From NCBI GenBank assembly GCA_009692485.1, contig SHZB01000001.1, positions 1 through 48,959 of the forward strand: 48,959 nucleotides of DNA, read 5' to 3'. The stretch comes from Myxococcales bacterium. Lineage in GTDB: Bacteria; Myxococcota_A; Polyangia; Polyangiales; Polyangiaceae. Made by a program: the position numbers and the translations under genes. The notes under the pieces are model-generated. The model ran no database searches. It saw nothing but the letters and a program-made list of their open reading frames with translations, and was not told the origin of the DNA. Below are positions 31,067 through 34,516 of the stretch, in pieces. Position 1 is the first letter of the stretch, and each line of letters starts with the position of its first letter.

Positions 31067-31086
31067 CCGCTTCCTAGTTGAACCCC

Positions 31087-32673
31087 ATGTCTGACGGAAC
31101 CATCACGATCGACGGCCGCCCGGTCCCCTTCGACAAGGGCGATACGATTATCAAGGCCGCCTACGAAGCGGGCATCGAGATCCCGCATTATTGCTGGCAC
31201 CCCGGGCTCAGTGCGCCGGCCAACTGCCGCATGTGTCTGGTCGAGATCGAGCCGCCGCCCGGGCGAGACCCGCTCACGCTCGACATCCTGCGATGGGACG
31301 CCGAGAAGAACGATTACGTCCCGACGAAGAAGGTGAAGCTCCTGCCGGCGTGCCAACAGGCATGTTCGGAGGGCTTGTCCGTGAAGAGCGACACCAGCGC
31401 CGAGGTCGACACCGCGCGCCACGCCGTTCAAGAGTTCTTGCTCTTGAACCACCCGGTCGACTGTCCGATCTGTGATCAAGCCGGTGAGTGCAAGCTTCAG
31501 GACTACTGGCTCGAGCACCAGAGCAGCAAGAAGCGCATGTCCGAAGAGCCCGTGCACAAACCCAAGGGCGTCGTCTTCGGCGAGACGATCATCTACGACG
31601 CGGAGCGCTGCATCATGTGCACGCGCTGCATCCGAGTGTCCGACGAGGTCGCGAAGGATCCCGTCCTCGACATGCGCGAGCGTGGCAATCGCAATGAAAT
31701 CGTGTTGAGCCCGGGCCGCACGCTCGACCACAACTACTCGCTCATGACCGAGCACGTCTGTCCGGTCGGCGCGCTCACCTCCAGCCACTTCCGCTTCAAG
31801 GCGCGCGTGTGGTTTCTTCGGTCGGGCGACACGGTTTGCCAAGGTTGCGCGACGGGCTGCAGCGCGCACCTCGACTACGACCCGCGCGACAACACCGCGT
31901 ATCGCTATCGCCCGCGCGACAACAAGGCCGTCAACGGCTATTGGATGTGCGACGTCGGGATGCTCTCGTACCCCGAGGCGCACGAAGCACGCATCGAGAG
32001 GGCGCGCGTGCATGGCAAAGACGCCGAGCTCGTCGACGCGATCGCGCAGGCGAAGAAGCTGTTTTCGAGCCACGCGAGCGACCCGTCCCGCATCGCGATC
32101 GTGCTCGGTGCGCGCCACTCGAACGAGGACAACCAGGCGCTTGCCCGCGTCGCCAAGATCTATCTTGGGGCGACTCACTTCTACCTCTCGCGCCGAAAAG
32201 ATGGGCACGCCGACGACATCTTGATGGTCGCTGACCGCAACTCGAACGCGGCAGGCGTCCACGAAATCGCACGAAATTTGGGCCTCGGCGACGTGCGCTC
32301 CCTCGCTGACCTCGTCCGGGACATCGCCGCGCTTCGCATCGATTTCGTCATCAGTCTCGGCGCAGACATCGACGGTGACGAGAGCGAGGCGATGGATCAG
32401 CTCCGGCGCGTGAAGGGCTTCGTGGCCATCGCCGCACATGAAGGTCCGCTCGCGAAGGCCGCCCACGTGGTGCTCCCGGCGGCGTCTTGGGCCGAGAGTC
32501 CGGGGACCTACGTGAACCGCAACGGAATCGCGCAGATCACCGAGGGCGTGCTGAAACCACGTGGAGACGCGCACCCGGCATGGCAGCTCGTCATCGCACT
32601 CACGCGTGCGCTCGGCTACGAGGTTGGCTGGAAAAAGCGCGGAGATCTTCAGGCTGGGGAGGCCGCGCAATGA
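31087..32673 (+). CDS. nuoG: NADH-quinone oxidoreductase subunit G (short form, ~525 aa)
   Basis: HPVDCPICDQAGECKLQD, RCIMCTRCIRVSDEV, CQGCATGCS; reduced molybdopterin-type region. Confidence 0.92.
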   Translation: MSDGTITIDGRPVPFDKGDTIIKAAYEAGIEIPHYCWHPGLSAPANCRMCLVEIEPPPGRDPLTLDILRWDAEKNDYVPTKKVKLLPACQQACSEGLSVKSDTSAEVDTARHAVQEFLLLNHPVDCPICDQAGECKLQDYWLEHQSSKKRMSEEPVHKPKGVVFGETIIYDAERCIMCTRCIRVSDEVAKDPVLDMRERGNRNEIVLSPGRTLDHNYSLMTEHVCPVGALTSSHFRFKARVWFLRSGDTVCQGCATGCSAHLDYDPRDNTAYRYRPRDNKAVNGYWMCDVGMLSYPEAHEARIERARVHGKDAELVDAIAQAKKLFSSHASDPSRIAIVLGARHSNEDNQALARVAKIYLGATHFYLSRRKDGHADDILMVADRNSNAAGVHEIARNLGLGDVRSLADLVRDIAALRIDFVISLGADIDGDESEAMDQLRRVKGFVAIAAHEGPLAKAAHVVLPAASWAESPGTYVNRNGIAQITEGVLKPRGDAHPAWQLVIALTRALGYEVGWKKRGDLQAGEAAQ

Positions 32674-32712
32674 GCGGCGATCATCAACCTGGGGAGGCCG
32701 CGCCATGAGCGG
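32643..32712. repeat. 35-bp direct duplication spanning nuoG stop / nuoH start
   Basis: gatcttcaggctggggaggccgcgcaatgagcggc followed by gatcatcaacctggggaggccgcgccatgagcggc (4 mismatches). Confidence 0.95.
32670..32708 (+). other. putative 12-codon micro-ORF MSGDHQPGEAAP with ATGA overlaps to nuoG (stop) and nuoH (start)
   Basis: ATG 32670-32672, TGA 32706-32708; GGGGAGG upstream of its ATG and of the nuoH ATG. Confidence 0.5.
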
Positions 32713-34516
32713 CACGGAGCTCTTCGTCGCGGTCATCAAGATCGCCATCGTCCTCGGCTTTCTCCTCAACATGGCGGCGATCACGACCTGGGCCGACCGC
32801 CGTCAGAGCGCGATGATTCAAGATCGCGTCGGCCCGAACCGCGCCGTCATCTACCTGCCCGCGTGGCTCGTTCGTGCGGTCGTGCTCGGCGGCGGCGTCC
32901 TGGTTGCGGCGGCTATCGCGGTGCCTTTTTGGGCGAAGCATCCGGGCCTCGAGAGCGCGCGCATCACGACCGGCATCGAGATCGCGATCCTCGTGGTCTG
33001 GACGACCCTGCTGTTGATCAGCGCGCGGGTTCGCAAAGATAGCGATGGCGTTGCGCCCTACCGCGACGGAGCCGACAGCGCCTTCGAGGAGCGGGTCGCG
33101 CAGCTCGCGCCGCGCACGTATTTCTACGCGGGGCTCATTGCACAACTCGCGGCCTTGTTCTTCGCCCAGCTCGCGCCGGCCGGGTTCATCGTTCGCGGAA
33201 GCTCGTTCGGCCCCGGAGTCGCCGGCTCGCTCGCGGCTTTGGCCATCCTGCTCGCGGCCGGTTACTCCGCCGGCAGGGTAGGCGAAGACCCGGTCCCCCT
33301 TCGGCTCGCCGGAATGCTCCACGCGCTCGCCGATGCGGTGAAGCTCATCTGGAAAGAAGACCTGCGGCCACGCGGCGCCGACCGGCTCCTGTTCGCGCTC
33401 GCACCGATGCTCGCGATGTTTCCGGCGCTCGTGACGATGGCCGTAGTGCCCTTCGGAAGCACGCTGTGCTTCATCGACTTCGATCGCGACAAGGTCCTCA
33501 GCTTCGCAGATCTCGCGCACCTCGCACCGGTCGTTGGCCCCAGCGGAGCGTGCAGCGCGGGACAGCTCGCCGTGTCGCTCTCGATCGCCAATCTCGACGT
33601 CGGCCTGCTCTATGTCTTCGCGATCGCGGGCACCGGCGTCATCGGCGCGGCGATCGCCGGCTGGGCAAGCAACAACAAGTGGGCCTTGCTCGGCGGTCTT
33701 CGTGCCACGAGCCAGATGGTCAGCTACGAGGTCGCGCTCGGCCTCAGCATCGTCGGCATGTTCATGGTCGCCGGGACCGTGAATCTGCAAAAGCTCGTGG
33801 ACTGGCAGGGGCAGAACGCATGGGGCATCTTCGTCCAGCCGCTCGCGTTCGTGCTGTTTCTCGTGGCGCTCGTCGCCGAAACGAAGCGCGTCCCCTTCGA
33901 TCAACCCGAGGGTGAGAGCGAGATCATCGCTGGCTATTTCCTCGAGTACTCGGGGATGAAGTTCGGCATGTTTTACACCGGTGAGTACATCGAGTTCGTG
34001 TTCTCGAGCGTGCTGCTCGTGACGCTGTTTTTCGGCGGCTATCACCTGCCATTTCTCGACCCCGATGGACTTCGAATCACCCTCGGCAGCGATCTCATCT
34101 ACGAGCTGAAGCTCACGCACCTCGCGGTCAGCGCCATTCACATCGCCACGTTCTTCGGCAAGACCATCCTCATGGTGTGGCTGCAGCTCTTCATCCGCTG
34201 GACCTTGCCGCGCTTCCGATACGACCAGCTCATGCGACTCGGCTGGACGAGGCTCTTGCCGCTCGCGCTCTTGAACATCGTGCTCACCGGCGCAGCCGTG
34301 CTCGCGCTCGAAAGCGCCGGCGAACCGCTCGGAAATGCCGTGGCGATCGCGGCCGATATCAGCCAGAGCCTCGTGGCGCTCGCTGCGCTCGGCGGCTCCG
34401 TTCTCTTCGTCACCGGCTTGCTCGAGCCGTCGCGGACGAAGCGAATCACCGCCTCGAGCGCAGCGCAGATGGCCCTCGCAGAGGGTGGCATTCGCGCGGG
34501 CAAGATGCAGGCATGA
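32705..34516 (+). CDS. nuoH: NADH-quinone oxidoreductase subunit H, enlarged (603 aa)
   Basis: DRVGPNRA, LHALADAVKLIWKEDLRP, IAGWASNNKWALLGGLRATSQMVSYEV, ETKRVPFDQPEGESEIIAGYFLEYSGMKF. Confidence 0.93.
   Translation: MSGTELFVAVIKIAIVLGFLLNMAAITTWADRRQSAMIQDRVGPNRAVIYLPAWLVRAVVLGGGVLVAAAIAVPFWAKHPGLESARITTGIEIAILVVWTTLLLISARVRKDSDGVAPYRDGADSAFEERVAQLAPRTYFYAGLIAQLAALFFAQLAPAGFIVRGSSFGPGVAGSLAALAILLAAGYSAGRVGEDPVPLRLAGMLHALADAVKLIWKEDLRPRGADRLLFALAPMLAMFPALVTMAVVPFGSTLCFIDFDRDKVLSFADLAHLAPVVGPSGACSAGQLAVSLSIANLDVGLLYVFAIAGTGVIGAAIAGWASNNKWALLGGLRATSQMVSYEVALGLSIVGMFMVAGTVNLQKLVDWQGQNAWGIFVQPLAFVLFLVALVAETKRVPFDQPEGESEIIAGYFLEYSGMKFGMFYTGEYIEFVFSSVLLVTLFFGGYHLPFLDPDGLRITLGSDLIYELKLTHLAVSAIHIATFFGKTILMVWLQLFIRWTLPRFRYDQLMRLGWTRLLPLALLNIVLTGAAVLALESAGEPLGNAVAIAADISQSLVALAALGGSVLFVTGLLEPSRTKRITASSAAQMALAEGGIRAGKMQA

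Follow-up and report, generated by a model that had tools for sequence, protein, structure and literature searches.

In the complex I (nuo) gene cluster of a Myxococcales bacterium, a 35-bp tandem duplication spanning the ancestral ATGA overlap between nuoG and nuoH has given rise to a second Shine-Dalgarno (SD)-ATGA unit, and a 12-codon micro-ORF now lies between the two genes. This micro-ORF probably, though with real reserve, serves as a passive relay that originated from the junction duplication and keeps nuoH coupled to nuoG, its peptide being a by-product. The nuoG/nuoH site alone is modest; the recurrence of such junctions and the length rule that they follow are the interesting part. 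The cluster lies in a stretch of 48,959 nt (the window) and was recognized by Pfam matches to Oxidored_q4, Oxidored_q6, Complex1_30kDa, Complex1_49kDa, NuoG-type Fe-S domains, NADHdh and Fer4. The features of the junction are as follows.

31078..32673, + strand: nuoG (short NuoG, 531 aa), an ORF with Pfam Fer4_Nqo3, NADH-G_4Fe-4S_3 and Molybdopterin; stop TGA at 32671-32673
32639..32673, + strand: repeat copy 1, the native 3′ end of nuoG, carrying SD and ATGA, from ungapped alignment with the nuoG end of relative G002
32658..32662, + strand: SD-like GGAGG of the micro-ORF, within the nuoG tail, 7-nt spacer (from the sequence)
32670..32708, + strand: micro-ORF MSGDHQPGEAAP, ATG to TGA, 12 codons, with 4-nt overlaps with the nuoG stop and the nuoH start
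32674..32708, + strand: repeat copy 2, the extra unit between nuoG and nuoH, with 5 mismatches to copy 1 and missing from relatives
32693..32697, + strand: SD-like GGAGG of nuoH, within the micro-ORF, 7-nt spacer (from the sequence)
32705..34516, + strand: nuoH (603 aa), Pfam NADHdh and NCBIfam NuoH, with homologs in relatives

The identity of NuoH is given by Pfam NADHdh (5e-101), and its start is backed by homology with G002 (MNLAELVVTVIKIAVVLGFL versus MSGTELFVAVIKIAIVLGFL). NuoH carries about 120 additional residues near positions 80-198, a segment absent from many family members, whose matches jump from 79 to 199. NuoG scores 345.9 against NCBIfam NuoG, below the cut-off of 470, and its molybdopterin-type region is reduced.

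Tandem Repeats Finder reports the array at 32639-32713 (period 35, 2.1 copies, 87% matches, no indels), and a second repeat search returned the same pair in a different register; a few bases of a third unit follow copy 2 in the window sequence. The tandem duplication had been noticed in the first-pass annotation, which counted 4 mismatches, but comparison in register of copy 1 (GCGGAGATCTTCAGGCTGGGGAGGCCGCGCAATGA) with copy 2 (GCGGCGATCATCAACCTGGGGAGGCCGCGCCATGA) gives 5 mismatches in 35. A tandem match of 30/35 is far from what chance would produce in random DNA. The positions assigned there to the nuoG stop, the micro-ORF bounds and the nuoH ATG all agree with direct reading of the sequence, as does an SD-like motif in both copies, namely GGAGG separated by 7 nt from an ATG (at 32670 and 32705). 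The micro-ORF stops at TGA 32706-32708, overlapping the nuoH ATG, and the two stop/start overlaps of 4 nt (32670-32673 and 32705-32708), each with an SD motif inside the frame upstream of the ATG, give the junction the layout of an ATGA-type coupled pair twice over.

Of 39 genomes covering the genus, the family and the order, 37 gave a NuoH homolog. A plain, direct 4-base overlap of nuoG and nuoH is seen in each of the four same-genus genomes (ATGA in G002 and GTGA in G001, G003 and G004) and in several other family members, others having short gaps; the 35-bp repeat was not found at the nuoG/nuoH junction in any relative examined. G002, the nearest relative with 79% NuoH identity, aligns without gaps to copy 1 through its NuoG tail KKRADLKPVEATP, and GGAGG or GAGG 7 nt ahead of nuoH, in the nuoG tail, is kept across the genus and among close members of the family. 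Relatives with a GTDB name are metagenome bins of Polyangia, reaching 56% NuoH identity at best. This comparison of orthologous junctions, proposed as a check in the first-pass annotation, bears out its view that an ancestral ATGA overlap became nuoG-ATGA-micro-ORF-ATGA-nuoH. Because the relatives lack the repeat, the duplication is specific to the lineage of this genome among those examined. The extra unit is confirmed as a real, correctly placed junction duplication.

The length of the unit sets what the micro-ORF encodes. The ATGA overlap sets the frame one base back, and 35 is 36 − 1; copy 2 is therefore read by the micro-ORF in the frame that nuoG uses in copy 1, and the micro-ORF product after the start, SGDHQPGEAAP, repeats the NuoG tail KRGDLQAGEAAQ in a variant form. 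With a unit of 3n − 1, the frame that begins at the first ATG thus re-reads the NuoG tail and closes exactly at the second ATGA. By direct reasoning, any stop-free 3n − 1 duplication across an RTGA overlap would likewise give a coupled micro-ORF, a 3n duplication would add an N-terminal extension to the downstream protein, and a 3n + 1 duplication would let a re-initiating ribosome enter the downstream gene out of frame. The frame is open and has a good ribosome-binding site, as a functional 12-residue peptide would require, but the peptide repeats the NuoG tail, no relative examined has it, and the five differences between the copies (three that alter a residue in the shared frame and two silent) are too few to show constraint. 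The peptide is therefore probably without function, and the reading in which it acts in its own right is barely credible.

In the proposed relay, ribosomes finishing nuoG would re-initiate at ATG 32670, read 12 codons and stop at 32706, and the same ribosomes or freshly recruited 30S subunits would then begin nuoH at 32705. The relay would in this way bridge the extra 35 nt; with no micro-ORF, 31 nt separate the nuoG stop from nuoH. A gap of +38 nt lowered re-initiation by 80-100% in E. coli, and about 22 nt abolished it in Haloferax (PMC10666635). Because gaps of ~20-38 nt nearly abolish re-initiation, 31 nt with no micro-ORF should cost nuoH most of its coupling, and the comparison suggests that the micro-ORF, with 4-nt overlaps and SDs at both ends, would restore the coupling geometry. 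SDs aid re-initiation in most E. coli pairs tested (PMC6728339). Whether coupling relies on the same ribosome or on a new 30S subunit after local melting is disputed, and in E. coli coupling may run mainly by a path other than re-initiation (PMC7538156); the micro-ORF can serve both. Counting against the relay, the strong SD that nuoH keeps might allow it to be started on its own.

RNA structure was rejected as a cause. The stretch 32601-32780 folds no more stably than shuffled sequences (z −0.01), and the nuoH SD, scored over 7-nt intervals reaching one base past GGAGG on either side, is predicted to be 0.05-0.29 unpaired in naked RNA, that is, mostly closed, with likewise low accessibility at the G002 junction. 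For a regulatory leader peptide or attenuator, stable or alternative RNA structures over the small ORF would be expected; this shuffle-like fold is what a non-exhaustive look for them gave.

The arrangement can be compared with several known systems, of which mycobacterial interspersed repetitive units (MIRUs) and synthetic bicistronic designs come nearest. In a synthetic bicistronic design, a short leader cistron with a second SD brings ribosomes to the target gene. The order of an SD, a short ORF with an embedded second SD (32693-32697 in 32670-32708), an overlapping stop/start and the gene is common to both, whereas the leader there is the ORF that opens the transcript and the nuo micro-ORF is natural, follows nuoG and was born by duplication. 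The work in which this design is mentioned describes the MIRU as a short intercistronic tandem unit whose small ORF is coupled by a 4-nt overlap (PMC12548453), and the MIRUs of senX3-regX3, of 77 and 53 bp (PMC4213456), are both 3n − 1. The nuoG/nuoH unit is likewise an intercistronic tandem whose ORF has a 4-nt overlap. MIRUs, however, form a dispersed and apparently mobile family, whereas the nuoG/nuoH unit copies its local junction and has no other occurrence across its own genome, on which ground a dispersed repeat family was rejected; it works like a MIRU but is not one. Each end of the micro-ORF has the 4-nt overlap and the SD in the upstream frame that are standard in ATGA termination-reinitiation (PMC6728339; PMC10666635), but here two overlaps 35 nt apart lie in series with a 12-codon cistron between them. 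Another operon-internal micro-ORF, mgtQ of Salmonella, encodes 8 aa in the mgtC-mgtB intergenic region, 51 nt beyond the mgtC stop within a 219-nt spacer, and affects translation of the downstream gene via ribosome destabilisation and a stem-loop (PMC8092293); no stem-loop is evident at the nuoG/nuoH junction.

Samples of this genome (G000) and of its congener G004 were scanned for duplicated RTGA junctions flanked by long coding frames; none was found in the latter. Two further cases were found in this genome, and one clear case came from a search for two successive SD-ATGA units across 290 genomes of the class, with gene identities at all three junctions assigned by Pfam.

L114 12803-12939 (contig C143 of G000), − strand: hisIE/hisD junction; 71-bp tandem duplication, 24-codon micro-ORF VSSLKLIAIAKLERFVERREGDAK, GTGA overlaps at both ends
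L118 14587-14665 (contig C4 of G000): junction of mnmA and the next ORF; 17- and 35-bp repeats, micro-ORF VSEAPP, GTGA overlaps
L158 1440-1600 (genome G170): sbcD/sbcC junction; 32 bp, copies 91% identical, micro-ORF MTVLADVEGAR

The hisIE/hisD duplication lies on the same contig as nuoG/nuoH. Orthologous junctions of relatives are direct overlaps in most cases: for hisIE/hisD, a direct RTGA overlap is seen in G001-G004, and for mnmA and the next ORF in G001, G003 and G004, the congeners where that gene pair was located. The class-wide search gave 30 matches, mostly unrelated arrays or non-duplicated micro-ORFs, and sbcD/sbcC of G170, from another family, is the one clear junction duplication among them besides that of the window. 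There, MTVLADVEGAR is followed by a second micro-ORF, MTPDSEVRA, which overlaps the sbcC GTG, and four congeners have a direct overlap. At the same junction, G150 (L222) has a 5-codon relay, VTGAS, and G143 (L219) a 47-nt repeat with the relay MRILAIRGVDLVRSSS, which, lying at the end of a contig, counts as a weak case. Across one genus, sbcD/sbcC shows one or two coupled micro-ORFs of differing origins, all spaced 2 mod 3. Arrays at L168 7513, L182 729, L169 7427 and L179 4777 were set aside, as they look like intergenic or in-frame coding repeats. This genome has 17 strict SD-ATGA...ATGA matches, only a small number of which lie between two long frames; chance occurrence of that pattern was rejected as a full account, the duplicated unit being absent from the other strict matches. 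As a separate observation, a 17-aa micro-ORF (about M..AELYFGTG.EARR) leads by ATGA onto a 330-codon frame in four genomes of one genus (L145, L146, L148 and L159) and may, given its conserved peptide, be a real small gene.

The spacings at nuoG/nuoH, hisIE/hisD, mnmA and sbcD/sbcC are all 2 mod 3 (3n − 1); were the phases equally likely, three or four independent duplications would all agree in this with a probability of about 0.04 to 0.01, a post hoc figure. Phases were also counted in same-strand spaced gene pairs from about 2.6 Mb of sequence in six Polyangia samples. Where RTGA stands at the upstream stop and at the downstream start alike, 34 pairs fall at 2 mod 3 versus 13 at 1 mod 3 (binomial p=0.003). 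The corresponding ratio is 33:28 in the strictest control, with RTGA upstream only, the downstream RTG having no following A (Fisher versus 34:13, p=0.07), 32:44 with RTGA downstream only (p=0.0015) and 75:105 with RTGA at neither end (p=0.0003). The phase excess of double-RTGA pairs is strongest at spacings under 12 nt (12:1), compared with 22:12 (p=0.12) at 12 nt or more. An uninterrupted micro-ORF is present in 30 of the 34 pairs at 2 mod 3, which does not differ significantly from the 27.6 expected from the control stop rate. A Fisher value of 8e-7 for mod-2 versus not-2 was not used, mod-0 pairs being depleted by construction. These counts are suggestive, not conclusive, of selection on phase at RTGA junctions.

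The main alternative to the relay is that the repeat is neutral, nuoH starting de novo from the SD of copy 2 and the micro-ORF being unused or inconsequential. Tandem arrays (period 14-160) occur at 4.36 per 10 kb in a 605-kb sample of this genome, about 5-fold more densely than in G004 (0.90 per 10 kb, 400-kb sample), the remaining Polyangia samples ranging from 1.4 to 4.35. At such a density, an occasional short duplication at a gene junction is expected, and the duplication event itself is ordinary in this array-rich genome. Among array periods not divisible by 3 in the window and the sample of this genome, 2 mod 3 outnumbers 1 mod 3 by 54 to 28. Neutrality would also fit with the intact GGAGG, 7-nt spacer and ATG of copy 2, the micro-ORF frame that a random unit length yields 1/3 of the time, the shuffle-like fold and the presence of this duplication in only one genome. 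It accounts poorly for clear junction duplications that are all 3n − 1, and the closed nuoH SD suggests reliance on upstream translation, though the G002 junction is the same in this respect. Neutrality is accordingly held to be unlikely, yet worth serious attention. Far less trouble comes from an error of assembly: the genome is a draft of 277 contigs, about 86% complete, but two copies with 5 differences in a 118-kb contig are hard to misassemble from one copy, and both reading frames are intact, which makes such an error very improbable.

The first-pass annotation had also proposed that an added round of termination and re-initiation may tune the NuoG:NuoH ratio, taken here as a lowering or adjustment of NuoH. 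Such a step at 32670 would follow from the anatomy, and two imperfect re-initiation steps in series would be expected to cut the flow. Subunit ratios matter in complexes, which would favor tuning. Those of heteromeric complexes are treated in PMC10666635. Against this, the arrangement is not conserved in any relative examined, the sequence holds no hint of a regulated signal, and strong SDs at both starts would keep the loss minimal. The arrangement can be explained without such tuning, which is considered improbable.

On the passive relay favored here, 3n − 1 duplications would persist because they are near-neutral for expression, with which the phase pattern is consistent, while other phases would lengthen the downstream protein or misframe re-initiated ribosomes. 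More broadly, and only tentatively, micro-ORF relays at operon junctions might be a recurrent, selected feature of Polyangia in which 3n − 1 duplications or insertions are preferentially kept, with MIRUs as the mobile version. If the interpretation is true, annotators should expect such frames of 2-30 codons from duplication and infer no functional peptide from them; natural pairs with one and two copies would be available for measuring whether ribosomes, once they have terminated, move on from gene to gene, a simple length rule (3n − 1) could be tested in any genome collection, and micro-ORFs between operon genes would be born in one step and at little cost.
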